Origin: an uncultured Clostridia bacterium
Lineage (GTDB): Bacteria; Bacillota; Clostridia; Christensenellales; CAG-314
Direction: 5' to 3'
NCBI GenBank assembly: GCA_944336125.1
Contig: CALVLA010000007.1
Span: forward strand, 1-64,000
DNA length: 64,000 nt
Shown here: piece after piece, positions 36,528 through 50,834 of the stretch
Position numbering within the stretch: position 1 is the stretch's first letter
Layout: every line of letters starts with the position of its first letter
Notes under the pieces: generated by a model
What the model saw: the letters and a program-made list of their open reading frames with translations, nothing else
The model's database searches: none
Told to the model about the DNA's origin: nothing
Made by a program: the position numbers and the translations under genes

Positions 36528-36553
36528 AAAAGCGGCTTTAAGCCGCTTTTTTT
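36528..36553. terminator. bidirectional terminator between convergent genes
   Basis: AAAAGCGGC (36528-36536) pairs with GCCGCTTTT (36542-36550) around TTTAA, followed by T. Confidence 0.9.
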
Positions 36554-38174
36554 ATTGTCTGCGTTTTTTTCGATATCTCCACACCAAAGCAAATCCTACG
36601 CACAGCAACAAAATAATGCCGATTGCAAGCCCCAATGCCACGGTGTCAGTCATTCCGCCTTTGATAAGGTATTTTGTTTCAACGTAACCGTAAACATCCT
36701 TACCGTCTATCGAAAGCCTTATTTTGGACCATTTTTCGTTTTGTTCGTAAACGTTTACCGTCTGACCGCTTTTTATCCTCGAAATTATTTCAGAGGAAAG
36801 GTCAGCATCGGCGTAAACCGAAAGGCTGCTGCCTATCGGAGGGTTTGCTACGAACATTTCGTAGGTAGGGAGAACTACCGGTGGGTCTTTGAGCTTTCCG
36901 CTGAGAATAAACCCGTATGTATCGTCAATTCGGACAAAGGACCACACTCCGCCGTCAAAGCCCTTTATGTTTGTTATCAAACGGACGGGAGTTGTGTTTG
37001 ATAGAGAAACAATTTGTCCGCCTGCGTCTCTGACTTTATATTCGTTTGAGTTAACGGGCAAAGTGAAAAAGTTTTCGTTTGAGTTGATTGTTACCTTGTC
37101 TGCATTCAAAAGCTCAAAACTTTGTGTTTGAGTTTTGCTTTTTTCCACAAACCCGAAGCAAGGATTTCCTTCGCCGTTGATGTAAAGCACGTAAAGGAAA
37201 TTTTCGTTTGCTATTTCGCTAAGAACAAATACGTATTCGTTTTCGTTTAAGTAACCGTACCAGCCGTTTTCGTCAGCGGCGTACAAAAAGGTGCGAGAGG
37301 TGATTTTCCTTACGTCCAAATCGTCGTCGCCGTCAATTTTGTCGTAATCGGTGGAAAAATCCTTCACGTTTGTGCCAAGCACTAACTGTTGTTTTTGAAG
37401 GTTTCCGTCAATTTTTTTGTAGAAATAAACTTTAAGTCCCGCTGTGTCGCAAACGTACATTTCGTCGCCCGTTACACAAAAGGCTCCGTTTTGAAAATCA
37501 AATTCAAGCAGCGTTTGCCCGTTTTGTGAAATTTTGCCTGGTGCGGCTTCATACGTTTTACCGTCTTCCCAATCTACTGCAAAAGCGCTTTCGGCTTCGT
37601 AATTTGAAAATACGCCGTTTTCGCTTTTGTAAACAACAACGCCGCTTTGAGTTTTTAGAAGATAACAAAAGTCATTGCCGTTTCCTGCCGCGAGGTCAAT
37701 TATTTCGTCGCTGCCAGAAGAGGGGAGAACAATATCGAAATCACCTGCGTTTGCTCCGTCGTTAACAGATGAAAGTTCCTTGCGGTAAATCACGCCGTCA
37801 AGCGAAAGAAAAACAAAGCTGTCGTTTACGTCAAAAGCCGTGAGGTTTTGAGCGGTGATTTTGATTTGCGACATGTCCGTAGGGTTTACGACAAACAATG
37901 CGTTTTCAACTCCGACGTAAACTTTGCCGTTTGACTCCCGTACGAACTTAATTGTTTCGGTAAAACCAAGGCTTTTTGTCTCGCTTTCGCCAAACACGTA
38001 CAAAATACCGCCCTTATCGGTGTTGTCGCCTACGTAAACGTACCGGTCGTCGGCGCACACCGCAGAAGGACTGTCGAAATGCAGGTTTTGCGATACGCTT
38101 TCCAACGCGCAAACATTGATATTTAACGGTAAAAGAAACAGTACCGCCATTAAAAGCACGCACAACTTTTTCAT
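36552..38174 (-). CDS. secreted, membrane-anchored beta-propeller/SH3-type protein
   Basis: The 540-residue protein has a signal peptide (about 1-23), a long beta-rich region (about 30-300) with propeller-like repeats (Y-V-Y-V-G-D, K-V-Y-V-G-V), several bacterial SH3-like segments (about 310-505, with W-S-F-V-R-I-D-D-T-Y-G-F and W-S-K-I-R-L), one membrane helix (about 512-532) and a basic tail. It shares this layout with the protein at 38943. A leaderless promoter drives it. A cell-wall sensor or scaffold role is possible, not shown. Confidence 0.65.
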   Translation of the reverse strand: MKKLCVLLMAVLFLLPLNINVCALESVSQNLHFDSPSAVCADDRYVYVGDNTDKGGILYVFGESETKSLGFTETIKFVRESNGKVYVGVENALFVVNPTDMSQIKITAQNLTAFDVNDSFVFLSLDGVIYRKELSSVNDGANAGDFDIVLPSSGSDEIIDLAAGNGNDFCYLLKTQSGVVVYKSENGVFSNYEAESAFAVDWEDGKTYEAAPGKISQNGQTLLEFDFQNGAFCVTGDEMYVCDTAGLKVYFYKKIDGNLQKQQLVLGTNVKDFSTDYDKIDGDDDLDVRKITSRTFLYAADENGWYGYLNENEYVFVLSEIANENFLYVLYINGEGNPCFGFVEKSKTQTQSFELLNADKVTINSNENFFTLPVNSNEYKVRDAGGQIVSLSNTTPVRLITNIKGFDGGVWSFVRIDDTYGFILSGKLKDPPVVLPTYEMFVANPPIGSSLSVYADADLSSEIISRIKSGQTVNVYEQNEKWSKIRLSIDGKDVYGYVETKYLIKGGMTDTVALGLAIGIILLLCVGFALVWRYRKKRRQ

Positions 38175-38209: not shown

Positions 38210-38330
38210 TAAAATGTACTTTTTTGTCGATTTTCGCCGCTTACGGAATATCGGCATTTTTTACTTTTTTGTCTGCTTAATGTTGCCATATAGATGTCAT
38301 ATTCCGAGTGCTAAAATAAAATAAAAAATC

Positions 38331-38344
38331 CGAACAAATGTTCG
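38331..38344. promoter_or_regulatory. LexA (SOS) box
   Basis: CGAACAAATGTTCG is a perfect match to the Gram-positive LexA/DinR consensus CGAAC-N4-GTTCG. It lies 19 bases upstream of the -35 of the regulator gene at 38464 and is the only perfect box noticed in the intergenic parts of this window. Confidence 0.85.
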
Positions 38345-38362
38345 AATTTGTGGCAGTCGATA

Positions 38363-38392
38363 TTGCTTTTGAATTTTGCGGTTTTTTATAAT
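38363..38392 (+). promoter_or_regulatory. promoter of the sigma-like regulator gene
   Basis: TTGCTT (38363-38368) and a perfect TATAAT (38387-38392) are 18 bases apart, just downstream of the LexA box. Start expected near 38399. Confidence 0.75.
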
Positions 38393-38404
38393 ATCGGTGC
38401 ATCG

Positions 38405-38450
38405 GACAACCGAAGTTGAAAGCCCCGTCAATTGGTTGTCAATTTTTTTT
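38405..38450 (+). terminator. terminator-like leader hairpin before the regulator gene
   Basis: GACAACC (38405-38411) pairs with GGTTGTC (38434-38440), with an inner TTGA/TCAA helix, then AATTTTTTTT. It lies within a few bases of the expected transcription start and ahead of the ribosome binding site, so it can act as an attenuator or as an insulating terminator. Confidence 0.65.
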
Positions 38451-38463
38451 GAAGGAGACAACA

Positions 38464-38946
38464 ATGAACAAAGTAACGGCAAAAACAATTTTGCGTTCTT
38501 ACAAATCGCTTTTTTCAATAGCGGAACAAATTGACGACCTTGTGCTGAAAAGGGCTATGTCTACTCATTCGTTGAAGACCGACTGTGTTTTTTGCTGCGC
38601 CGAAAAGCAGGTTGAGCAGGTGGTGAAGCTGATGAACAAAAAAAACAATCTTATCAACCTCAAGCTTTTGACGGACGAGACGCTTGAGGCACTCGGCGAA
38701 GAGTGCCGTACGGTTTTGAAAAATAAGTACATAGAGTGTTTGAAGCCTGAGGAAACGGCAAAAAGTCTCGGAATAAGTTTGAGGACATATTTCAGAAGGC
38801 TTGACAAAGCCGAAAAGAGTTTCGCGAAGGAGCTTTTAAGACGGGGCTGTGACGACGAATGGTTTAAGGAAAACTATTTTGACCAAAGCTGGCTTAAATA
38901 TCTTTACGAAAACACTTTGGAAAAAGTCGAAAAACAGGAGGCTTAA
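38464..38946 (+). CDS. sigma-70 region-4-like / ArpU-like phage transcription regulator
   Basis: The 160-residue protein has a C-terminal helix-turn-helix (about 95-128) of sigma region 4 type: L-K-P-E-E-T-A-K-S-L-G-I-S-L-R-T-Y-F-R-R. The N-terminal part is helical with a C-V-F-C-C cluster (about 40-44) and no obvious region 2. This size and design resemble phage late-gene activators such as ArpU. AAGGAG precedes the ATG at 38464. LexA box, promoter and hairpin upstream suggest damage-induced expression. It probably controls the head cassette, which has no clear sigma-A promoter. Confidence 0.65.
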   Translation: MNKVTAKTILRSYKSLFSIAEQIDDLVLKRAMSTHSLKTDCVFCCAEKQVEQVVKLMNKKNNLINLKLLTDETLEALGEECRTVLKNKYIECLKPEETAKSLGISLRTYFRRLDKAEKSFAKELLRRGCDDEWFKENYFDQSWLKYLYENTLEKVEKQEA

Positions 38947-39716
38947 AGCAAATCGAGGTCGTCGAAGGTGTCGCCTTCCGACATATATTTTGGTCTCGGC
39001 GGCTGAAACTTTTTTTGATGAGGTTTTTTCTGCGGCATAAAAAGCAAAATGACGATTACCACTGCGGGAATACAAATTAAAAGTATCATGGCTATTTCGA
39101 CGGGAGACGAGCCGTTTGTTTCGGCAGGTTTTTCCGTCTGATTTTCGTCGGGAGTTTCAGGAACCGTTTCGGAAGGAAGCGGCGTAGGATGCGGCGTTAT
39201 CACAAGGTCGGAAAGCTGCCTTTTTTGAACGTATCCGAAGTCTGTGCGGTATTTTACGTAATACCAGTCGGAGTTTTGCCATGCTTTTCCGTAAAAACAT
39301 ACTTCCTGACCGCTAAGCGCGGCTGAAATATCTGCCGCGGACATGTCGGGCGAAGTTTTCAATACGGCGTTGCTTTGGTTTACGTTAAGTATTTCAGTAG
39401 GGTAGTAAGGCGCTACCGGCGGCTGGTCGCACTTGACCACGTCTGCGGCTTTTACGTATCCGCTGATTTTGGTAAATCCGTTTGAATTGTCAAAAAGCTG
39501 TACCGTCAAAAATTCGTTGGCAGATGAATACGCAAATACGTAATACGTCTTTTCAAGTAAAAACAATTTCTGACTGTCCGTGTCAATCGGCTGTTTGAAA
39601 AATACCACGTTATCCGTCTCTATGCGATACCAGCCTCCCGTCTGAGCGGCGGCAGGCTTTGGAACGAACAAAATCGCTATTATCAACAGACAAAAAACTT
39701 TAACAACTTTTTTCAT
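38943..39716 (-). CDS. secreted, membrane-anchored SH3-domain protein
   Basis: The 257-residue protein has a signal peptide (about 1-24, ending A-A-A), two bacterial SH3-like domains (about 26-95 with W-Y-R-I-E, and 105-165 with W-Y-Y-V-K-Y and F-G-Y-V-Q), a P/T/E-rich linker (170-200), one membrane helix (about 204-226) and a K/P-rich cytoplasmic tail with an acidic end. GAGGAAAG precedes the ATG. Its stop overlaps that of the regulator by four bases, and its start faces the terminase gene. Confidence 0.7.
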   Translation of the reverse strand: MKKVVKVFCLLIIAILFVPKPAAAQTGGWYRIETDNVVFFKQPIDTDSQKLFLLEKTYYVFAYSSANEFLTVQLFDNSNGFTKISGYVKAADVVKCDQPPVAPYYPTEILNVNQSNAVLKTSPDMSAADISAALSGQEVCFYGKAWQNSDWYYVKYRTDFGYVQKRQLSDLVITPHPTPLPSETVPETPDENQTEKPAETNGSSPVEIAMILLICIPAVVIVILLFMPQKKPHQKKFQPPRPKYMSEGDTFDDLDLL

Positions 39717-39807
39717 ATTTCTTTCCTCGTCAGCAAAGTATAAATCGGGTATAACTACGCTTTATAGCAATTAATGTAGAAAAAGATAAAAGTGTGGTGA
39801 AAAATAT

Positions 39808-41229
39808 ATGGACGACATTTCGCAGAAAATAAAGCTGATTGAGGCGGAACTTAAAAGACGAAGCCAACTCAAACTTAATTTGTACAACAGCGGCGAAAAG
39901 GTCCATTTGAAACAGCTTGAATTTCACAAGTGTCAAAAGCGAAACAGGTGGGTTTTCGGGGGAAACCGCAGCGGAAAAACAGAGTGCGGTGCCGTCGAGA
40001 CCGTCTGGCTCGCGAGAGGGATACACCCTTACAGGCAAAACAGAAAAGACGTCAGCTGCTGGGTGGTATCGTTGTCAAATCAGGTACAGCGCGACGTTGC
40101 GCAGCAAAAAATTTTGAGTTATCTCGACCCGACGTGGATTGTCGAAGTGGCAATGAACTCGGGCAAAAAAACGGGGCTTGAATACGGCGTAATAGACTAC
40201 ATAGTAATCAAAAACGTATTCGGAGGCCTCAGTAAAATCGGGTTTAAAAGCTGCGAGGCGGGCAGAGAGAAATTTCAGGGCACAAGTCTGGATTTCGTTT
40301 GGTTTGACGAAGAACCTCCAAAGGACATTTACGACGAATGCAAAATGAGGGTGCTTGACAGAAAGGGTGAAATTTTCGGCACAATGACGCCTCTCAAAGG
40401 ACTGACTTTCATATACGAAGAAATTTACCTTAACAAGTACGACTCCGACGAAGTGTGGTGCGAGTTTATGGAATGGGCGGACAATCCTTACCTCGACGAG
40501 GGGGAAACAGAGCTTATGCAGCGCACCATGTCGGAGGAAACGCTCAACAGCAGGCGATACGGAAAGTTTAACAGCGCGGTGGGCCTAGTTTATCCCGAGT
40601 TTGACCCGTCCGTACACGTAATCGAGCCTTTTGACGTTCCTTACGAGTGGCAGGACACGATGTCTATCGACCCCGGTCTCAACAATCCGCTAAGCTGTCA
40701 CTGGTATGCCGTCGATTACGACGGAAACGTTTTCGTCGTGGCTGAGCATTACGCCAAAGGCATGGACGTTTTTTGGCACGCCGACAAGATTAAGGAAAAG
40801 TGCAGACTTTTGAACTGGCACACCGACTCGACGGGAAACTATCAGGCTTTAATCGATTCGGCGGCAAATCAGCGTACGCTTGCTTCAAGCAAAAGCGTCG
40901 CCGAGCTTTTTTGCGAAAACGGCATTTCGGTAAACACAAAAGTAAACAAGGACGTTTTTTCGGGTATCAACCGAGTCAAAGGATATCTCATGCCTTTGGA
41001 CAAAAAACCGCGCCTTTTCATTTTTTCAAACTGCACAAATATGATTAGGGAAATCAAGTCATATTGGTGGGGCGAAAACGATATGCCCAAAAAAATCGAC
41101 GACCACAGCATGGACGAGCTGCGATATTATATTTCTTCCCGTCCCGACGCTCCCAAAAGAAAAACCGAAAAAACCGTTATTCAAAAGGACAAGGAAAAAC
41201 TCATGCGAAAACTCAGGAGCGTCAGATGA
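39808..41229 (+). CDS. terL: phage terminase large subunit
   Basis: TerL is the ATP-driven DNA-packaging motor and headful nuclease. The 473-residue protein is complete: Walker A GGNRSGKT at 51-58, Walker B VWFDEE at 164-169, coupling motif G-T-M-T-P-L-K-G at 191-198, and RNase-H-type nuclease acids D288 (S-I-D-P-G), D350 (I-D-S-A-A) and D436 (S-M-D-E-L). Only a weak ribosome binding site (GTGGTG) and no convincing sigma-A promoter precede it. It heads a run of ten same-strand head genes. Confidence 0.93.
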   Translation: MDDISQKIKLIEAELKRRSQLKLNLYNSGEKVHLKQLEFHKCQKRNRWVFGGNRSGKTECGAVETVWLARGIHPYRQNRKDVSCWVVSLSNQVQRDVAQQKILSYLDPTWIVEVAMNSGKKTGLEYGVIDYIVIKNVFGGLSKIGFKSCEAGREKFQGTSLDFVWFDEEPPKDIYDECKMRVLDRKGEIFGTMTPLKGLTFIYEEIYLNKYDSDEVWCEFMEWADNPYLDEGETELMQRTMSEETLNSRRYGKFNSAVGLVYPEFDPSVHVIEPFDVPYEWQDTMSIDPGLNNPLSCHWYAVDYDGNVFVVAEHYAKGMDVFWHADKIKEKCRLLNWHTDSTGNYQALIDSAANQRTLASSKSVAELFCENGISVNTKVNKDVFSGINRVKGYLMPLDKKPRLFIFSNCTNMIREIKSYWWGENDMPKKIDDHSMDELRYYISSRPDAPKRKTEKTVIQKDKEKLMRKLRSVR

Positions 41230-41522
41230 ACAAAAAACTCAATTTATCGCTTAAAGACGCTTTGATAAAAAAAGCAATGGGTTATACCGCCGAGGAAACG
41301 GTGGACGAGCTTGCTCCTGAACCTTTTACAGGCGAACTTAAAATCGTCAAAAGAAAGGTGACTACAAAGCACATTCCTCCTGACCTTACGGCGGCAAAAC
41401 TGCTTTTTGAGGTTACGGGAGACAAGACATTCGACCTTTCGGCGTTGTCCGATGAACAACTTCTCGCCGAAAAAAACAGGCTTGAAAAATTGAGGAAAAA
41501 AAATGCTCAAAAAATGCAATGA
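41226..41522 (+). CDS. small phage-type protein between terL and portal
   Basis: The 98-residue protein overlaps the terL stop (ATGA) and is mostly charged: K-A-M-G-Y-T-A-E-E-T-V-D-E-x-A, then K-R-K-V-T-T-K-H-I-P-P-D-L-T-A-A-K-L-L-F-E. This type of small protein accompanies terminases in Bacillota phages. It might serve as small terminase or as a packaging accessory; no helix-turn-helix is evident. Identity is open. Confidence 0.6.
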   Translation: MNKKLNLSLKDALIKKAMGYTAEETVDELAPEPFTGELKIVKRKVTTKHIPPDLTAAKLLFEVTGDKTFDLSALSDEQLLAEKNRLEKLRKKNAQKMQ

Positions 41523-41730
41523 AACTATGTCGTGCGACGCCGTCGATTGTATGAACAAGGCGTCGCACTTCTTTAAAATCAAGGGCGGCATGAAAACCGT
41601 TTGTCTTTGCGAGCAGTGCATGAAAAAACTGTTTGACGATTTGTCAGGCGTATTCGTGCCAAAAAGCCCTAAAAACAAAATTTCCGACGTGATGGATAAA
41701 AAGAAAGGAGCTTTGAAAGGTGACCGATAA
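41503..41730 (+). CDS. small zinc-ribbon-like protein
   Basis: The 75-residue protein has six cysteines (5, 11, 16, 34, 36, 39), of which C11/C16 and C36/C39 with neighbouring H22 could bind zinc. It overlaps the previous gene by 20 bases and the portal start by 11. No function is known; nucleic-acid or adaptor binding is a guess. Confidence 0.55.
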   Translation: MLKKCNETMSCDAVDCMNKASHFFKIKGGMKTVCLCEQCMKKLFDDLSGVFVPKSPKNKISDVMDKKKGALKGDR

Positions 41731-43591
41731 ACAACTTTTTTATGAGGAGCTTGTACGCGAAGTCAAGGAGGATTTTGCCGCGCGCAGGGAAATGCGCAGG
41801 CCTTACGAGCTTACTTGGCAGCTCAACATGAATTTTCTCATGGGCAACCAATTTTGTAACATTACCGGTCGCGGCGAAATCGAGCAGGACGAAAAATATT
41901 TTTTCTGGCAGGAACGCGAAGCGTACAACCACATCGCTCCTATCATCGAAACCCGTGTGGCGAAACTTGACAGAGTCAGACCCGCAATTAAAGTTATGCC
42001 TTTTTCGGACGGCGAAAAGCATTTGCAGGCGGCGGCGGAAGCCGAAAGAATTTTGAATTATGCCGCCGACAATGTCGAACTGTCGCAAAAAGTTACACAG
42101 GCGACAACGTGGAGCGAAACCTGCGGCACGGTTTTTTACAAAGTCGTGTGGGACAAAAACAAAGGAAAAAAACTCGGAGTTTCCGACAAGGGACAAGACA
42201 TTTTCGAAGGTGACGTTGACCTTTCGGTATGTCCGCCTTTTGAAATTTATCCCGACAGCAACGTTTCGCAGACAATCGAAGAATGCGGATCGATAATTCA
42301 CGCAAAAGCCTATTCGGTAAGCGACGTCAAAAAGATATGGGGCGTAGACGTCGAAGGAGAGGATATTCAGGTTTTTGCTCTCGACGGAACGATAGGCATA
42401 GGCGGACTCGGGTACTACTCGACGGTGCCAAACATAATTTCGCAGACAAAGCACGATCAGGTGATTGTCATCGAAAAATACGTTCGTCCAGACGTCAACT
42501 ACCCAAACGGCAGGCTGATTATCGTAGCCGGGGACAAGCTGCTTTTCAACGGGGATTTGCCTTTCATAAACCGCGAAAACGGTCAAAGAGGTTTTCCTTT
42601 CGTAAGGCAGCTTTCGCAAACGGTGGCAGGCTGTTTTTGGGGGATGTGCGTTATCGACAGGCTGATACCTATTCAGCGCGCTTACAACGCCGTCAAAAAC
42701 AGAAAGCACGAGTTTTTGAACAGAATTTCAATGGGAGTGCTTACCGTGGAGGACGGGTCGGTTGACGTTGAAAATTTGCAGGAAGAAGGTCTTTCTCCCG
42801 GCAAGGTTTTGATTTACAGACAGGGAAGCGAGCCGCCTAAAATCATGGACGGCGGAAACGTGCCGCTTGATTTTACCTATGAGGAAGAAAGGCTTATCAA
42901 CGAATTCATGGTAATAAGCGGAACAAGCGAACTCAGCCGAAACTCGGCAACGCCTACAAACGTTACCAGCGGCGTGGCTTTGCAGCTGCTTATCGATCAG
43001 GACGACACACGTCTTGCGGCAACCGCCGACGAACTCAGATACGCCATTTCGAAAATAGGACAAATGATTTTGTCCGCTTACAAACAGTTCGCGCTTACTC
43101 CGAGAACCGCAAAGGTGTGGGGAAGCGACGGAAAACTCAGTTCTTTCACTTTTGACAGGGACGATATTCTTTGCGAAAAAGTTACCGTTGACACTCAAAA
43201 CGAGATAAACGATACCGTAAGTCAAAGAAGAAGTATGATGCTCGACCTTTTGCAAAAAGGCGTGCTTTACGACGAAAACGGAAATTTGCCCGAAAGCACA
43301 AAATCAAAAATTCTCAAACTCGCGGGCTTTTCCGATTGGGAAAAAAGGCAAACTCTTTCCTCCCTTCACGCCAAAAAGGCGGCGGAAGAAAACGAGTCGT
43401 CTTTTGAAAATATTTCGGTATGCGAAATCGACGACCACAAAATTCATATCGAGGAACACACGAGATTTTTGCTTTCCGACGACGGCAAAAAAGTTTCCGA
43501 CCAAAAAAAGGACGCGATTGTCCGACATATTTCGCAGCATAAAAAGTTTTTGAAAAAATTGCGTGAGGAGGAAAAGGGTGAGCAACTTTGA
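41720..43591 (+). CDS. phage portal protein (P22-like)
   Basis: The portal is the dodecameric ring at the capsid vertex through which DNA enters. The 623-residue protein resembles P22-type portals: an N-terminal helical region with N-F-L-M-G-N-Q-F and R-P-A-I-K-V-M-P, a beta-rich wing, the R-A-Y-N-A-V-K-N-R-K-H-E stretch (about 321-332) and a long C-terminal helical barrel. The start is GTG at 41720, preceded by AAAGGAG. It is complete and in place after the terminase. Confidence 0.88.
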   Translation: MTDKQLFYEELVREVKEDFAARREMRRPYELTWQLNMNFLMGNQFCNITGRGEIEQDEKYFFWQEREAYNHIAPIIETRVAKLDRVRPAIKVMPFSDGEKHLQAAAEAERILNYAADNVELSQKVTQATTWSETCGTVFYKVVWDKNKGKKLGVSDKGQDIFEGDVDLSVCPPFEIYPDSNVSQTIEECGSIIHAKAYSVSDVKKIWGVDVEGEDIQVFALDGTIGIGGLGYYSTVPNIISQTKHDQVIVIEKYVRPDVNYPNGRLIIVAGDKLLFNGDLPFINRENGQRGFPFVRQLSQTVAGCFWGMCVIDRLIPIQRAYNAVKNRKHEFLNRISMGVLTVEDGSVDVENLQEEGLSPGKVLIYRQGSEPPKIMDGGNVPLDFTYEEERLINEFMVISGTSELSRNSATPTNVTSGVALQLLIDQDDTRLAATADELRYAISKIGQMILSAYKQFALTPRTAKVWGSDGKLSSFTFDRDDILCEKVTVDTQNEINDTVSQRRSMMLDLLQKGVLYDENGNLPESTKSKILKLAGFSDWEKRQTLSSLHAKKAAEENESSFENISVCEIDDHKIHIEEHTRFLLSDDGKKVSDQKKDAIVRHISQHKKFLKKLREEEKGEQL

Positions 43592-44156
43592 AAAACAAAA
43601 AAAGCTACAAAATCAAACAGAATCCGTGGAGGAAAAAGAACTTCACAAAACAGACCCCGACGCTGAAAAACAAATCGATTCCCAAAGTGTAGGAAACGAA
43701 ACTAATTTCGGCAAATTCAAGGACGCGGCTGAACTTCTCAAAGCCTACGAAAACCTTGAAAGGGAATTTACAAAAAAAAGCCAAAGGCTTAAAGAACTTG
43801 AAAACAGCTTCAACCGCGATAATGAAGAACTTTCACCGCGGCAAATTCTTCCGACGGCAAATCCCAAAAAGGATTCGTCGGCAACTGACGGCGTTTTTGT
43901 CGACAACCCCGCTTATGCGGACGAAAACCACCGTCTGAAAAATCTTTTGAGCGACAGAGATTTTATCGAACAGTACGTCCTCAACAACGACGAACTGGCA
44001 AAAACCGTTTTGAAACGTTACATAAACGCTTTGTCGCAAAGCGACCTGCCTTCCACAATCAACAGCAGGAACGGCTGTATGTCGCTTACTCCGCCAAACA
44101 GACCTAAGTCAATCAAAGAGGCTTCGCGTATGGCGGAAAAATACTTTAACAAATAA
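43578..44156 (+). CDS. phage scaffold-like protein
   Basis: The 192-residue protein lies between portal and capsid, where scaffolds are found. It is highly charged and helical (about 40-90: K-D-A-A-E-L-L-K-A-Y-E-N-L-E-R-E-F) with a proline/serine-rich middle and a basic helix-turn end (S-R-M-A-E-K-Y-F) that could bind coat protein. The GTG at 43578 is chosen because AGGAGG lies six bases before it, although an upstream GTG at 43563 is in frame. The call rests on position and composition. Confidence 0.65.
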   Translation: MSNFEKQKKLQNQTESVEEKELHKTDPDAEKQIDSQSVGNETNFGKFKDAAELLKAYENLEREFTKKSQRLKELENSFNRDNEELSPRQILPTANPKKDSSATDGVFVDNPAYADENHRLKNLLSDRDFIEQYVLNNDELAKTVLKRYINALSQSDLPSTINSRNGCMSLTPPNRPKSIKEASRMAEKYFNK

Positions 44157-44167
44157 TCGGAGGAAAA

Positions 44168-45337
44168 ATGGTTACATTACAAAGTGCTGAAAACGCTCTG
44201 AAAACTCTTTATCTCGGAGTCGTTTCCGACCAGCTCAACACCAACGTCAATCCGCTTCTTGCGATGATTGAAAAAACTTCAAGCGACGTTTGGGGCAAGG
44301 AAGTAAGAAAACTCGCGCCTTACGGCGTAAACGGCGGTATCGGTGCGGGTACCGAAACCGGCGACCTTCCGTCCGCCGCCCAAAACAACTATGCACAGTT
44401 TGTTTTGACGCTCAAAAACCTTTACGGCACAATTGAAATTTCCGACAAGGCAATCAGGGCTTCTCAAAACAACGCCGGCGCTTTCGTAAATCTTCTCAAT
44501 GCCGAAATGGAAGGACTTCTCAAAGCAAGCAAATTCAACTTCGGCAGAATGCTTTACGGCGACGGTAGCGGCAAACTCGCGGCAGTCGAATCGGCTTCCG
44601 GCAACGACGTTGTGGTTGACAATCTTCAAAACCTTATGGAAGGTATGGTTGTCGACGTTCTTACCGCAGAGGGTGGTTCAACCGGCGTAGTAAGCAGACG
44701 AATCGTCGCAATCGACCGCGATACCGACACAGTTACTCTTTCGGGCAACGCGGTTAACGGTTCAGTTTCCGCTGGCAACATTCTTACCGTTCAGGGAAGC
44801 TACAACAACGAAATTACAGGCCTCGGCGCCATTTTCGGAAACAGCGCAACTCTCTACGGCATCAACAGAGCCGCAAACAAATGGCTTTCTCCAAAATCTT
44901 TCGAAGCTTCAAGCGGCGAAATCAACGACATTACCCTTCAAAAAGCGGTGGACACTCTTGAAGAAGTTTCCGGCAGCTCGGTAAACTTTATCGTTTGTCC
45001 GTTCGGCGTAAAAAGAGCTTATCAGGAATACCTGACCGCAAACAGAACAAACGTCGACATTATGAATCTCGCGGGCGGTTACAAGGCAATTTCCTACAAC
45101 GGTATTCCTATCGTCAGCGACAGATTTGCGCCAAAGGGTACTATGTACCTTCTTAACACCGACGAATTCAGCCTTCATCAGCTTTGCGACTGGCGCTGGC
45201 TCGAAGGCGACGACGGCAAAATCATCAAACAGATTCCGGGAAAACCTGTTTACACCGCCACGCTCGTGAAATATGCGGACCTTATCTGCAACAAACCTAG
45301 CGGTCAGGCAAAAATTACCGGTATCAACGAAAAATAA
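44168..45337 (+). CDS. phage major capsid protein (HK97-fold, P22-coat-like)
   Basis: The 389-residue coat protein has the features of P22-like/Clostridial coat proteins: a Q-S-A-E-N-A-L-K-T-L-Y start, an E-loop-type segment with G-G-I-G-A-G-T-E-T-G-D-L-P, an I-E-I-S-D-K-A-I-R-A-S spine region, a beta insert (about 150-215) and a C-terminal P-domain core with F-I-V-C-P-F-G-V-K-R-A-Y. Codon use is like highly expressed host genes. CGGAGG precedes the ATG. Confidence 0.88.
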   Translation: MVTLQSAENALKTLYLGVVSDQLNTNVNPLLAMIEKTSSDVWGKEVRKLAPYGVNGGIGAGTETGDLPSAAQNNYAQFVLTLKNLYGTIEISDKAIRASQNNAGAFVNLLNAEMEGLLKASKFNFGRMLYGDGSGKLAAVESASGNDVVVDNLQNLMEGMVVDVLTAEGGSTGVVSRRIVAIDRDTDTVTLSGNAVNGSVSAGNILTVQGSYNNEITGLGAIFGNSATLYGINRAANKWLSPKSFEASSGEINDITLQKAVDTLEEVSGSSVNFIVCPFGVKRAYQEYLTANRTNVDIMNLAGGYKAISYNGIPIVSDRFAPKGTMYLLNTDEFSLHQLCDWRWLEGDDGKIIKQIPGKPVYTATLVKYADLICNKPSGQAKITGINEK

Positions 45338-45368
45338 TTTTTGATTTTTTCTGAAAGGAGGTCGGACA

Positions 45369-45710
45369 ATGTCCCGCAAAGTTAAAATCAACAACGACGT
45401 TTTTGACATTGCAAGGCGTCTTAAAGAAATAGACGACGGATACTTTGTTCTTTACGACAAAAAGCTCATGCGTTTCGAAGTACACAACAGACGCCAGCGT
45501 CCCGACACATTGTGTTTGGTTTTGCCATATGATACTTTGGACTGTCGTGCCATCGAAAGGGTATTGCGGACTCGTCTTGACAATATCGAAAAAGAATTGA
45601 AAACCATGGACGAATTCAACGAAAAAGTATCAAAAAAGCATTTGGCGGACAATGTCGAAAAACATATTGCCATAGGCGGCGAATTGTTCGACAGACTTTC
45701 AAAGACGTGA
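45369..45710 (+). CDS. small phage-type protein after the capsid gene
   Basis: The 113-residue protein has an N-terminal part with V-F-D-I-A-R-R-L-K-E-I-D-D-G-Y-F-V-L-Y and V-H-N, then a helical C-terminus. AAAGGAGG precedes the ATG. The place behind the coat gene suggests a head decoration or completion protein, but no family is recognised. Confidence 0.6.
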   Translation: MSRKVKINNDVFDIARRLKEIDDGYFVLYDKKLMRFEVHNRRQRPDTLCLVLPYDTLDCRAIERVLRTRLDNIEKELKTMDEFNEKVSKKHLADNVEKHIAIGGELFDRLSKT

Positions 45711-45723
45711 CAAGGAGAATTTA

Positions 45724-46305
45724 ATGAAAATCAGAGATATTGTGGAACTTGCCGCGGTTTTGCTGCAAAAGCACGAAATCATAAACACCGGAATTTTCGC
45801 CCAAACCGAGTCAAGCGATTGGGTAGAGGCGGAACTTAACGGCAACAGGGAACTGCGGCTTATCATCAGATGTGCAAACCTTGTCCTTAAAGAAGTCGCC
45901 TGCGAATATATTCCGCTTTACCACAAGCAAAATATGGTAAGCCATGACGGAAAAATAAATTATTCCGATTTTGAAAAGTCTTTGCTTGAAATAAAAAAGA
46001 TAAAAAACAAATATGGCAACGAAGTGAGATATTTCACTTTGCCCGACTACGTCGCGGTGGAAGACGGTAATTTTGAAGTTTCGTACGCCTTTATACCCGA
46101 CGACAAAGGTTTTTTTGACGAAATTGATTTTTCAGGCACAAAAGCATGCGACAGACTGTTTGCTTACGGTACGGCAGCTGAGTTTTGTCTTATCAGCGGA
46201 ATGTACGAGGACGCTTTGATGTGGGAAAAAAGATACAAGGACGCATTGCTTGTCGCAACTCGCAAGACAGGCGAAAAAGTAATGCCGAAACGGAGGTGGT
46301 GGTAA
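45724..46305 (+). CDS. head-tail adaptor-like protein (P22 gp4-position)
   Basis: The 193-residue protein begins with a helical segment (I-R-D-I-V-E-L-A-A-V-L-L-Q) and contains R-L-I-I-R-C-A-N-L-V-L-K-E-V-A, a pattern seen in connector/adaptor proteins built of helices. Its order and size correspond to P22 gp4, which seals the portal. AAGGAG precedes the ATG. The identity is inferred from position; the stop overlaps the next start. Confidence 0.55.
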   Translation: MKIRDIVELAAVLLQKHEIINTGIFAQTESSDWVEAELNGNRELRLIIRCANLVLKEVACEYIPLYHKQNMVSHDGKINYSDFEKSLLEIKKIKNKYGNEVRYFTLPDYVAVEDGNFEVSYAFIPDDKGFFDEIDFSGTKACDRLFAYGTAAEFCLISGMYEDALMWEKRYKDALLVATRKTGEKVMPKRRWW

Positions 46306-47699
46306 TGTTTTACCGCAAAAGTCTTTTGACAAAAACCGCCCAAACTTCCGAAATTTCGTTTGACGATTTTTCTGGAGGAATGAATCCCGCTTTGTACAAT
46401 ATTTCTGCAAGCCACGCAAGACTTTGTTTCAACGTCGAAGGAAAAGACGGGGCGCTTAAACAGTGGAAAGGTTTTGACCGACCGCGTTTAGGCGCCTCGG
46501 TTTTTTACCCCGAAGCGCAGGAAGTTTTTTGTCCGCGAGAGGTTTGTAAAATAGTAGCCGCGGGAAAAGACGGAAAGATTTACGTTTTCAAAGGAGAAAC
46601 CTTTGAGGAAATTTGCTCGTTCGGCGGAAAAGTATGTTTTGCCGACTTCAAAAAGGACGGCAACTACTGCCTTTTGATTTTTGACGACAGCGGAATAAGA
46701 ATTTATGACGGACAAAGTGTTTCGACGGTTACTTCGGACGTTAAAATCGAAAGGGCGACGGTATTTAAGGAAAGAATTTTCGGCATTTCGAGGGAAGACG
46801 ATACTAAAATTTATTTTTCCAAGCCGCTTGACTGCCTCAACTGGACAAGCTCTTTTGAAGAAGGCGGCTTTGTCTGTTTTGACGACAACTTCGGCAGAGT
46901 GTTTGACATCGGGGTGTTCGAAGACAGGCTTTACGCTTTCGGAAACGGAAAAATCGCGGCACTGCACGCGGGGCTTCCTCAAAGCGAGTTTGAAGTGGAA
47001 AAGATTTTCGCATCGGGCGGAAGAACGGTAAAAAACAGCGTTTCAAACTGCGGATGCGGACTGGTATTTCTGACTTCCGACGGATTGTATTTTTTCGACG
47101 GAAGCGGATCTGAAAAAATTTGCGGGGAGCTTGACGGATTTATAAGCGGAAAACATGCCGTTTCTGTTTGTGACGGAAGTAATTATTACCTCGCTTGCCT
47201 TTGCGATTTCGGCGATCATCAAAAAGTTTTGTGCGAAAAAGGCAACTTTTTCAACAATGCGTTGATTTGCGTGAATACCGAGGATTTTTCGGTAAAAATC
47301 GCAAGAGGCGTCGACATAAGCTCGCTTGCGCTTTTTGAGGACCAAGAGGAAAACTCCGTTTTGTTTGCCGAAAGGGGACAGATAGGCTATTTGTCTGAAA
47401 GCGGCAGCTACTTCGGACAAAACCTGCCTAAAATATGGCGTACGGCTTGCAGTGATTTGGGTTATCCCACTTCAAAAAAATGCCTGAAAAATTTGTTCTT
47501 GCTCACTACGTCAGACGCCGAAGTAAAAATTATGGCGGACGGAGTGCCCCATTCTTTCAGCGTAAAGGGTAAAGAAACGCCGCAAAAAGTCAAAATAGGG
47601 GTCAGCGGAGTTAACCTCAGGATTTCCTTCGAAACTAATTCACCTGAGTTTTTGATTTTGAAACCCACATTTACCATGGAAATTTACAAGGAGGGCTGA
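46305..47699 (+). CDS. beta-rich tail-hub-like protein (P22 gp10-position)
   Basis: The 464-residue protein starts with an S-F-D-D-F-S-G-G-M-N-P motif and continues as a beta-rich chain with W-K-G-F-D-R-P-R and repeated F-D-D/G-R-x-F-D strands, consistent with a beta-propeller. Length and position fit P22 gp10 (472 residues), the tail hub that closes the portal. The ATG at 46305 follows CGGAGG and overlaps the previous stop; an in-frame upstream start at 46185 is less likely. Confidence 0.55.
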   Translation: MFYRKSLLTKTAQTSEISFDDFSGGMNPALYNISASHARLCFNVEGKDGALKQWKGFDRPRLGASVFYPEAQEVFCPREVCKIVAAGKDGKIYVFKGETFEEICSFGGKVCFADFKKDGNYCLLIFDDSGIRIYDGQSVSTVTSDVKIERATVFKERIFGISREDDTKIYFSKPLDCLNWTSSFEEGGFVCFDDNFGRVFDIGVFEDRLYAFGNGKIAALHAGLPQSEFEVEKIFASGGRTVKNSVSNCGCGLVFLTSDGLYFFDGSGSEKICGELDGFISGKHAVSVCDGSNYYLACLCDFGDHQKVLCEKGNFFNNALICVNTEDFSVKIARGVDISSLALFEDQEENSVLFAERGQIGYLSESGSYFGQNLPKIWRTACSDLGYPTSKKCLKNLFLLTTSDAEVKIMADGVPHSFSVKGKETPQKVKIGVSGVNLRISFETNSPEFLILKPTFTMEIYKEG

Positions 47700-47701
47700 T
47701 T

Positions 47702-48604
47702 ATGGGCGTAATACCGGCGGACCTTTTGAAACAATACCTGCGTATAGACAAGAGGTATTCGATAAATCCCGTGGAAGAACCGTTTTTCGACGTCCCTACA
47801 AGTCTGGATTTGGATAAGATGGAATACACGCCGCCTACTTCGGAGCAAATCGAAGCGCAGGCGAGGGAAAACCTTGCGGCAAGCTATTCCGAAAAAAAAC
47901 TCAAAGAGGAATTGAGTTACCAAAAGGCGGTAAACGACGCCGAAATCAAAAAACAACAGATTGCGGCTGTCCTCGAAGCGGACAAACAAAAAACAGACGC
48001 GGATTTTGAGGCGGAAAAAGCCGCTTTGAAATTAAAACTTATAAACAGCGGTCTATCCAGAAGTTCGGTTTTTGATAATGCCGTTTTAAGCATTGACGCT
48101 TCCTGTCAGGAGCAAAAGCAGCTTTTGGAACAGCAGGCTCAAAGCAAAATAAACGCCGTTGACGCCGAAGTTTTAAAAGCCGAAGAAGAAAAAAATTCGG
48201 CGATAGCAAACATCGAACAGGTTTTTTTGCTTGATCTCGAAGCTGAAAAGGCAAAACTTACCGATGACGTTGCGAAAAAGCAGGAAGAAGTTTTAAAATA
48301 CAACAACACCGTTGACGAAAAACAGGCTACCTACAAACGAACATGGAACTCGGCTTACATAGCAGCGCAAAAGCAACACACCGAAAGCGCAACGGCATTG
48401 CAGGATATTGCTGTAAATCAAGGTTACGAAATTATTCAAAATTATATTTTCGACGACAAAACTTTGTTTACCAAGGACTATTTTTTGAACTTTACACCGC
48501 AGGAGGCGGTCAACGCTCTTGCTGCGGCGCGTACTGATTTTGAAAATCAGCTGGGTGTAACTAATTACAACGAGCTGGTAGGTTTTTTTCAGGAAAGAAC
48601 CTGA
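47702..48604 (+). CDS. coiled-coil phage-type protein (needle/ejection-protein position)
   Basis: The 300-residue protein has a proline-rich start (1-60, with E-E-P-F-F-D-V-P-T-S) followed by a long K/E/A-rich coiled coil (about 65-230) and a mixed end. In P22 the gene in this position is the trimeric coiled-coil tail needle gp26. The sequence match is by architecture only; a minor head or internal protein is also possible. It is the last gene of the cassette, before a terminator. Confidence 0.55.
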   Translation: MGVIPADLLKQYLRIDKRYSINPVEEPFFDVPTSLDLDKMEYTPPTSEQIEAQARENLAASYSEKKLKEELSYQKAVNDAEIKKQQIAAVLEADKQKTDADFEAEKAALKLKLINSGLSRSSVFDNAVLSIDASCQEQKQLLEQQAQSKINAVDAEVLKAEEEKNSAIANIEQVFLLDLEAEKAKLTDDVAKKQEEVLKYNNTVDEKQATYKRTWNSAYIAAQKQHTESATALQDIAVNQGYEIIQNYIFDDKTLFTKDYFLNFTPQEAVNALAAARTDFENQLGVTNYNELVGFFQERT

Positions 48605-48629
48605 AAGCGGGCACTATGCCCGCTTTTTT
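48604..48629 (+). terminator. intrinsic terminator of the head cassette
   Basis: AAAGCGGGCA (48604-48613) pairs with TGCCCGCTTT (48617-48626), followed by T. It marks the right border of the phage-like transcription unit. Confidence 0.92.
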
Positions 48630-48710: not shown

Positions 48711-48746
48711 TTTATATAATTATATTTATTTTCAGGGGAACGTTTG

Positions 48747-50834
48747 ATGGCTCGCAGGCCTGTTTTAGCTTCGCTTTGCGGTACCGCTTTAGGTATCGTG
48801 TTTGCATATTTGACACAAACAAGCATCGGCTTTTCCGCATTACTTTTGATTGCGGTTGCCGGTGTGATTTTCATGCTGACTTACTTTGCGGGCTACAAGT
48901 CTGTCGCCGGGTGTCTTGCCGTCTTTTCCGTGATAGGGTTTCTTTTGTTTTCGGTAAATCTTTGCGTATACGAAGCCGGTTATTACGACAATGCCGAAGT
49001 CGAAGTTACAGGTGTGTTGACAGATGATGAAAACGTTTTGCGCGATTGTAAAGTTGACGGCAAAAGCATAGACGGCAAAATCGAAATCGATGCGTTTTAC
49101 TTACCAAAAGGCGAAAGAAATCCCGATGTCGGCGATGTGTTTACTTTCAGGTGCAAACTCGGCGACTATGTTTTGATAAAAGACGGCGTCGATACCGTAA
49201 AATTCAAAAAGGGTATCAGATATCGCGTGACCGAATTTTTAAGCGATGTTTACGTAGTTGACGGCGAGGCAAATCTCGGTGAGAAAATAAGACTTTACGT
49301 TAAGGACTTACTTGGTGAGTATCTTTCCGATGACGCTTTCGGTGTTGCTTACGCAATGCTTCTTGGCGACAAGTCTGAAATGGACAGCGAAATTTCCGAT
49401 ATGTTCAGCAATGTCGGCATAGCTCACATCTTTGCGGTAAGCGGTCTGCATATCGGTTTCGTAGTAATGCTGGTAAATATGTTTGTCAAGCGTCGCAGAA
49501 AACTGTCTTTCGCTTTGACCATGTCCGCCGTATTTTGTTACGCTTCGATATGCGGTTTTCCGCCAAGCGTGATGAGAGCAATGATAATGACGGGTCTGAT
49601 GTTGTTTCTCAAAATGATAGGGCGTCAAACCGATTTGCTTTCTTCCGTAGCTTTTGCGGCAAATCTCATTTTGCTTGTTCGTCCGTTTTATCTTTTCGAC
49701 GTCAGTTTCCAAATGTCAGTGGGTGCTGTTTTAGGTATTTGTCTTGTGACGAGACCTCTCAACATCTTTTTCAACGACAAACTAAAAGATAAACCCAAGT
49801 TTGTCAAAAACATTGTTTCTTCTCTTTGCGTGAGCATAGGCGCAACTCTCGGTACTTCTCCTTTTCTTATCGAATATTTCGGAGGCGTTTCGGTTATCGG
49901 TGTGTTCTTCAATGTAATTATGCTTCCGCTGGTTTCCCTTTTGTTCATGTTTATTTTGCTGTCCGTTCTTATTCCGCCTCTCGCTTTGCTTCTTCCTTTG
50001 GCAGGTGCCGTACTCGAATTCGTGATAGACGCGACAAGTTTGTTTTCCGAAATTCCTCAGCTGGTTTTGCCAAAAATAGGGCTTGTTTCGGCAGTCGTCT
50101 TTATTGTTTGTCTTTTTGTCGCGGGCGGCTACCTTTTGATTAAAAATCGTGAGAGAGTTATGCTTTCTCTCATGCTTTTCGCTACTTTGTTTTGCTGCTG
50201 TATATTTTACGATATAAAGCCTATGGTGAACGGACTAACGTATTTCGATACGGGCGGCAGCACTTTTGCCGTGGCTTGCGACAACGATGAGTATTTGTTT
50301 TGTGATTTGAAAAACTTTTACGACTATGAAAAAGCGGAGGAGTTTGACAAAGACGGGACTATTGAGCTTTTTGTGCTTAACTACGAAAACATAAACGAAA
50401 ACGTCGCTTTGACACTTGCTCAAAAATACAAACTGCGGCTGTTCGTAATAGGGCTTATTAAAACCGACGACAAGTATTATTCACTCATTAAAAACGGTGT
50501 GGAAATTAAAAGACTGACGTCCTTCAATTCGCCTGATTTTTTCTTTTCGACTTTGCAGTATTTAGGCTCGCCCGTTGCGGTAAACATAAATTTTTCAAAT
50601 TCGACTTTTACTTACGTTTACCCGCTGACTTCCTTCAGGCTTGAATTTTTGCGAAAAAACACGACGTCTGACTTTTATTTTGTGTCAAATTTTTCGGAAG
50701 AGACAAAATCCGCTTTTCCGTCTTCGCTTGTTTTTACTTCGGAATACGTTGTGAGTGGCGACATTTACTCCACGCAACTGACAGGCAACTTTACATTGTC
50801 GGCAAATGGTGGTAAAATTACCTTTATCAAATAA
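48747..50834 (+). CDS. comEC: ComEC/Rec2-family DNA uptake channel
   Basis: ComEC forms the inner-membrane pore for single-stranded DNA in transformation. The 695-residue protein has N-terminal membrane segments, an extracytoplasmic OB-like domain (about 70-180), the competence domain (about 195-455) with A-Y-A-M-L-L-G-D-K-S-E-M and H-I-F-A-V-S-G-L-H-I-G, and a C-terminal metallo-beta-lactamase-like region (about 490-695). That last region keeps Y-F-D-T-G but has no H-x-H-x-D-H motif. AGGGGAA precedes the ATG at 48747. Next gene is holA, as usual. Confidence 0.9.
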   Translation: MARRPVLASLCGTALGIVFAYLTQTSIGFSALLLIAVAGVIFMLTYFAGYKSVAGCLAVFSVIGFLLFSVNLCVYEAGYYDNAEVEVTGVLTDDENVLRDCKVDGKSIDGKIEIDAFYLPKGERNPDVGDVFTFRCKLGDYVLIKDGVDTVKFKKGIRYRVTEFLSDVYVVDGEANLGEKIRLYVKDLLGEYLSDDAFGVAYAMLLGDKSEMDSEISDMFSNVGIAHIFAVSGLHIGFVVMLVNMFVKRRRKLSFALTMSAVFCYASICGFPPSVMRAMIMTGLMLFLKMIGRQTDLLSSVAFAANLILLVRPFYLFDVSFQMSVGAVLGICLVTRPLNIFFNDKLKDKPKFVKNIVSSLCVSIGATLGTSPFLIEYFGGVSVIGVFFNVIMLPLVSLLFMFILLSVLIPPLALLLPLAGAVLEFVIDATSLFSEIPQLVLPKIGLVSAVVFIVCLFVAGGYLLIKNRERVMLSLMLFATLFCCCIFYDIKPMVNGLTYFDTGGSTFAVACDNDEYLFCDLKNFYDYEKAEEFDKDGTIELFVLNYENINENVALTLAQKYKLRLFVIGLIKTDDKYYSLIKNGVEIKRLTSFNSPDFFFSTLQYLGSPVAVNINFSNSTFTYVYPLTSFRLEFLRKNTTSDFYFVSNFSEETKSAFPSSLVFTSEYVVSGDIYSTQLTGNFTLSANGGKITFIK

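Follow-up and report, generated by a model that had tools for sequence, protein, structure and literature searches.

A candidate SOS-inducible, podovirus-type gene transfer agent-like cassette inherited vertically across most of the Christensenellales

The window analysed here is a 64,000-nucleotide stretch of an uncultured Clostridia bacterium (Bacillota; Clostridia; Christensenellales; CAG-314; GenBank assembly GCA_944336125.1, contig CALVLA010000007.1, positions 1 to 64,000 of the forward strand), whose source genome is a 1.24-Mb draft of 20 contigs, 94.6% complete. It carries a cassette of phage-type structural genes that we interpret, with a probability of about 0.74, as an SOS-inducible, vertically inherited element of podovirus type that resembles gene transfer agents (GTAs), that is, as an ancestral phage structural operon kept by the host; on this interpretation, capture of the operon predates the divergence of the families of this order. 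GTAs have been defined by six features, namely caudoviricete-derived structural proteins, endogenization, mostly vertical inheritance with host co-diversification, packaging of mostly random host DNA, a particle in which its own gene cluster does not fit and delivery of DNA to other cells (Kogay et al. 2022, PMC9662315). Caudoviricete-derived structural proteins (family matches and Foldseek), full endogenization (housekeeping flanks, single copy and no integrase recognised at the locus) and mostly vertical inheritance (splits congruent with gyrB and a position near gyrB in five families) are found here, and the other three features are a matter for experiment; thus, we describe the element as GTA-like.

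Vertical inheritance and purifying selection

Ten intact co-directional genes, each with a single, terminal stop codon, occupy positions 39808-48604 of the plus strand, from the large subunit of terminase (TerL) to a coiled-coil protein (Table 1). An earlier note, made from the letters of the window, had described this terminator-ended series, and all of it was recovered, with matches far beyond chance for the major capsid protein (MCP), portal and TerL; its statement that base and codon use resemble those of the neighbours likewise holds (mean gene GC content 0.439 in the cassette versus 0.440; codon-usage r = 0.97). Across 80 loci the layout is regulator, divergent SH3 gene, TerL, small subunit of terminase (TerS), Cys-rich protein, portal, scaffold, MCP, 113-aa protein, adaptor, nozzle and coiled coil. 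The flanks across loci are housekeeping genes (gyrB-gyrA, ssb, polysaccharide deacetylase, ribonuclease J, and murC- and murG-like genes), those in the window being ssb, polysaccharide deacetylase, gyrBA, comEC and holA, and the MCP gene lies at most 32 kb from gyrB in 20 genomes of five families (binomial P ~2e-9, uncorrected for kinship).

Trees of gyrB and of the combined MCP, portal and TerL from 61 genomes had 36 of 58 splits in common, compared with a mean of 0.2 and a maximum of 3 in 1000 label shuffles, and 33 of the 39 supported cassette splits recurred in the gyrB tree. In the cassette tree, families of at least two members each came out as a single clade, f1 being the exception, broken only by the long-branched G011. 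When mapped on the gyrB tree, cassette presence required 9 changes versus 18 with shuffled labels. Every cassette gene is under purifying selection, with median dN/dS (the ratio of non-synonymous to synonymous substitution rates) in close pairs of 0.046 for TerL, 0.053 for portal, 0.058 for MCP, 0.08 for TerS, 0.09 for the adaptor, 0.11 each for the Cys-rich protein, coiled coil and regulator, 0.145 for the nozzle and 0.16 for the 113-aa protein, rising to 0.24 for the scaffold, the fastest head gene, and ~0.24 for the divergent SH3 gene; these figures are approximate, many dS values being near saturation.

MCP was present in 93 of 151 relatives and in 241 of 395 genomes of the order (~60%; all but two of the 395 have a completeness of 90% or more and contamination of no more than 5%), almost always in single copy with an open frame. 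Every examined f1 genome of at least 90% completeness carries it, and the three f1 genomes without a match are only 76-82% complete. Outside the order, a 391-genome sample of the class yielded MCP in only 12 genomes, five of them in one genus (g142) and the others scattered. Taken together, these patterns indicate that most of the order has inherited the cassette vertically, as an intact single copy, and the earlier suggestion of domestication is borne out by order-wide single copy, housekeeping flanks, synteny, a host-congruent tree, purifying selection and a conserved LexA box.

A predicted short-tailed, DNA-packaging particle

The earlier note had taken the cassette for a head module, and the head genes do stand, but the predicted structures point to more than a head. 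Neither the adaptor nor the nozzle gave a useful family match by sequence alone, and AlphaFold models of both were built on alignments of relatives (predicted local distance difference test scores of 91.5 for the adaptor and 89 for the nozzle). In Foldseek searches the adaptor model matched connectors of KHP30, Pa223, SU10, P1, N4 and T7 (gp11), with a best E value of 2e-6, and the nozzle model matched the tail of Pa223 (2.1e-21) as well as proteins of VP1, GP4, P22, Sf6 and SU10. Portal, adaptor and nozzle would together form a stub tail, and so the cassette is predicted to encode a short-tailed particle and not a head alone. Some families have extra genes of ~120-390 aa between the nozzle and the coiled coil.

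At least 95% of 62 TerL homologues retain the residues of Walker A (G51-T58), Walker B (D167 E168) and the nuclease (Asp 288, 350 and 436). Family libraries gave no match for the scaffold-like protein and little for the 113-aa and Cys-rich proteins, and the window copy of the coiled-coil protein, which is probably an ejection, plug or needle component, had no family match.

Integrase, tail-fibre and lysis genes were reported as missing in the earlier note. This holds for the locus itself, where searches recognised neither these nor a repressor or replication gene, the genome's two integrase-family matches being on other contigs; in some sister families, however, BhlA or Phage_holin_1 holins lie 3' of the cassette.

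Predicted control by the SOS response

An SOS-controlled regulator upstream of the cassette had also been proposed, and the comparison of loci supports it: a regulator with sigma-70 region 4 and similarity to ArpU precedes the cassette, and its family was found in 50 of 81 compared loci. The box upstream of it, CGAACAAATGTTCG, is the sole perfect CGAACN4GTTCG in the 1.24-Mb genome, and of 50 regions upstream of the regulator, 44 contain a LexA box that matches at 8 or more of the 10 positions, versus ~7% of shuffled windows, an AAAT spacer being common to many of these conserved boxes. LexA is encoded in the genome, and the promoter of lexA itself holds CAAACAAATGTTTG, with a spacer identical to that of the cassette box. 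A relaxed LexA pattern has 11 matches in the genome, among which only the lexA and cassette boxes share that spacer; the others lie inside genes, except perhaps for one 5' of a typA-like gene, and have differing spacers, and a second SOS-linked operon for tail or lysis functions cannot be proposed from them. A search for a common promoter motif 5' of terL turned up only subclade-specific words. By analogy with Xpf of PBSX, LexA would repress the regulator and the regulator would activate the operon; the cassette is apparently under the host's own DNA-damage switch.

The following course of events is consistent with these data. DNA damage would inactivate LexA and free the box at 38331-38344, as its conservation suggests, whereupon the sigma-region-4/ArpU-like activator would be made and would turn on the terminase operon in the manner of Xpf. 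Portal, scaffold and MCP would build a procapsid, which terminase would fill by headful cutting; the DNA would be mostly that of the host, because the motor residues are intact, replication and integration genes are lacking and there is no own phage genome to prefer. In line with the predicted structures, adaptor and nozzle would close the head to give a short-tailed particle, to be released by lysis, for which some sister families have the holins 3' of the operon, while a search of this genome for two holin families gave no partner. Kin would then take up the DNA, possibly via ComEC and DprA. We infer that the result would be packaging and delivery of random host DNA.

DprA is also encoded in the genome. 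comEC, the gene of a DNA-uptake channel (48744-50834), follows the cassette in this genus, but near the cassettes of other genera it was not detected; its position may reflect a functional link to DNA receipt, or coincidence.

Features of the locus

Table 1 Features of the cassette and its upstream region, with positions in the window.
Feature	Position	Strand	Evidence
Sigma-70-like promoter, ATGTCA-17-TAAAAT	38294-38322	+	Consensus scan only, 9/12 matches; directly 5' of the LexA box
LexA (SOS) box, CGAACAAATGTTCG, palindrome	38331-38344	.	Just 3' of the promoter-like -10
Sigma-70 region 4/ArpU-like late activator	38464-38946	+	phrog_36, 3.7e-10; PF08281 above cut-off
Divergent secreted, membrane-anchored SH3_3-like protein	38943-39716	-	Weak SH3_3 match; between regulator and TerL
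TerL	39808-41229	+	phrog_2, 4.7e-29; PF03237
TerS-like protein	41226-41522	+	phrog_309, 1.5e-7 across ~50 residues; tblastn match at the same place in 63/80 loci
75-aa Cys-rich protein	41503-41730	+	Kept between TerS and portal in 39/80 loci
Portal, P22/SU10 type	41720-43591	+	phrog_156, 7e-36; PF16510, 1.7e-23
Scaffold-like protein	43578-44156	+	Position between portal and MCP; conserved in 67 loci
MCP	44168-45337	+	phrog_14242, E = 7.7e-70
113-aa conserved protein	45369-45710	+	Kept in 45 loci
Head-to-tail adaptor (portal-tail connector), 193 aa	45724-46305	+	AlphaFold and Foldseek
Short-tail nozzle, beta-propeller of P22 gp10/T7 gp12 class, 465 aa	46305-47699	+	AlphaFold and Foldseek
Coiled-coil protein	47702-48604	+	At or near the end of the cassette in 65 loci
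Intrinsic terminator	48603-48627	+	11-pair stem, then T run; strong

The divergent SH3_3-like gene was not listed in the earlier note. Its family adjoins TerL in 44 loci, and the protein is possibly part of the cassette system. A second divergent gene for a secreted SH3-domain protein lies near the cassette (36552-38174, minus strand) and has homologues in 22 loci. Both proteins recur beside the cassette and evolve fast, and they could have a role in cell-wall passage or particle binding. PADLOC gave no defence match.

Alternative interpretations

Several observations weigh against a GTA-like element. Twenty-two of the 58 splits differ between the cassette and gyrB trees, and ~39% of the order's genomes have no MCP, most of these falling in a single clade of larger genomes when placed on gyrB. 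A single perfect LexA box in 1.2 Mb does not in itself exceed chance, a reversed control pattern giving 2, and the weight of the box therefore rests on its conservation. BhlA and Phage_holin_1, the only two holin families searched for, are absent from this genome, and no endolysin or receptor-binding protein was identified. The evidence consists of sequences and predicted structures, from genomes that are nearly all drafts or metagenome-assembled. A few genomes of the order have two copies; together with G659, which has an internal stop in the capsid gene, and G054, they are the exceptions in the comparison of gene content, synteny and dN/dS among related genomes that the earlier note had called for, in which results contrary to domestication were not the rule. 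In G054 (locus L239) the cassette has decayed in place near gyrB, with only the adaptor, the nozzle and an MCP frame of 48 residues left, the picture that loss gives after constraint ends.

An alternative interpretation, which we consider unlikely although it survives best, is that the cassette is a vertically kept element like PBSX, whose SOS-induced particles package host DNA without delivering it and kill competitors or serve some other non-transfer purpose. PBSX of Bacillus subtilis is an SOS-inducible chromosomal phage-like element that couples induction to a sigma-like late activator (Xpf), as is predicted here, and the failure to find a receptor-binding protein in the cassette suits this alternative, delivery being a prediction of the GTA-like interpretation. 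However, PBSX keeps a long contractile killing tail, whereas the cassette has a stub tail of adaptor and nozzle with no obvious killing part and is conserved order-wide. PBSX has been discussed as a non-injecting tailocin-like particle (PMC12946183).

That the capsid forms a compartment for something other than DNA, or has another structural role in the host, strikes us as quite improbable. Some genomes outside the order do retain genes for MCP, scaffold, the 113-aa protein and nozzle, next to which neither terminase nor portal was recognised, but within the order the motor and nuclease residues of TerL are conserved in at least 95% of copies and its dN/dS is the lowest in the cassette; thus, DNA packaging is implied here.

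It is very improbable that the loci are ordinary prophages or remnants acquired independently many times. The genes are phage-derived, two copies occur in a few genomes, and head modules of the same family lie in prophage-like loci outside the order, as in L274, where genes for a DnaB helicase, a replication-initiation protein and a TerS of classical type adjoin the module. Against this, the tree is congruent with that of the host, position and flanks are conserved, selection is purifying, searches of the locus recognised no gene for integrase, replication or a repressor, and the phage collection contains no close free phage. An intact temperate prophage does not fit a locus with housekeeping flanks at which integration, replication and lysis modules were not recognised, and a decaying prophage is rejected on synteny, phylogeny and selection. 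The capsid-forming phage-inducible chromosomal island, or phage satellite with its own heads and borrowed tails, to which the earlier note drew a parallel, is the least probable alternative and is rejected despite the compact head and packaging genes and the SOS link, because no integrase is among the locus genes, the cassette has its own adaptor and nozzle, and synteny, phylogeny and selection indicate vertical inheritance in one place.

Comparison with known systems

The nearest precedent for a GTA-like cassette of this kind is FpGTA (FpGTA I and II) of Faecalibacterium, a 10.5-kb podovirus-like operon of ten genes whose 40-nm particles carry 8.4-8.9 kb of host DNA (Borodovich et al. 2026, Nat Commun, PMC12946183); the two were compared by layout only. 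Both are ~10 kb, podovirus-like and from gut Clostridia, with ten genes that include TerS, TerL, portal, scaffold, MCP and short-tail proteins, both lack replication genes, and FpGTA is conserved across its host genus. They differ in that TerS precedes TerL in FpGTA, whereas the TerS-like gene follows TerL here, in the LexA-boxed sigma-like activator and divergent SH3 gene of the present layout, and in conservation, which is order-wide here and within one genus there; FpGTA also has packaging data, whereas the cassette is so far a set of genes. In FpGTA II, co-occurring tail-fibre and endolysin loci stand apart from the operon. GTA-like packaging was also observed in Christensenellaceae in that study, which describes an operon only for Faecalibacterium (PMC12946183). 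We judge it slightly better than an even chance that the cassette is a functional, SOS-switched podovirus-type GTA, older than the families of the order, that accounts for this packaging of Christensenellaceae DNA in faecal viromes, and that the PF09479 capsid repeat seen in one family could aid binding to cells or mucus.

Alphaproteobacterial GTAs such as RcGTA (Rhodogtaviriformidae) are likewise vertically inherited, host-congruent structural clusters under host regulation, but RcGTA has a 49-nm tail (PMC9662315), unlike the podovirus-type cassette of Clostridia with its P22/SU10-like portal and short-tail nozzle. The portal family, the nozzle and adaptor folds and the MCP family are shared with P22, SU10, Pa223, VP1 and the actinobacterial phages Shocker and Jasmine, all free viruses, from which the cassette is set apart by an MCP identity of ~33% at best, also the highest value for any capsid in the phage collection.

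Few GTAs are known, mostly from Alphaproteobacteria, and the literature that we found assigns an operon to only one GTA of Gram-positive gut bacteria, FpGTA. The cassette is a strong GTA candidate, a tamed virus that, if the interpretation is true, ships pieces of host DNA between cells. It was found in ~60% of the near-complete genomes sampled from the order and offers a set of genes, a predicted SOS switch and the architecture of a particle, with which DNA exchange by domesticated viruses among small-genome gut bacteria becomes testable in existing virome data. It also raises the question of why genomes of 0.8-2 Mb retain a 10-kb capsid operon under purifying selection. IMG/VR catalogues a dozen matching fragments (L111-L122) as viral contigs, most of which are this chromosomal cassette, and we caution that virus catalogues thus enter GTA-like genes of hosts as viruses.

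Related loci

In the genus g142, all four genomes whose locus was read (L268:6785-11514, L269, L273 and L279) share a small conserved locus that comprises genes for the nozzle, a 176-aa protein, the 113-aa protein, MCP and scaffold, and neither terminase nor portal was recognised alongside. In L268 it is flanked by leucine-biosynthesis-like and serC-like genes; it is a candidate second domesticated capsid locus. In G128 (L278:8035-10337) the MCP gene is duplicated in tandem, and genes for BhlA and Phage_holin_1-like holins lie further downstream. The cassettes of L048 and L053, records titled Corallococcus sp. (NALB isolates), group in this Clostridia order, and the organism label looks wrong. 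The MCPs of G073 and G115 in family f3 (L208 and L226) have an extra C-terminal Listeria-Bacteroides repeat (PF09479; 7e-16 and 5e-13), which may serve the particle as a module for surface adhesion.

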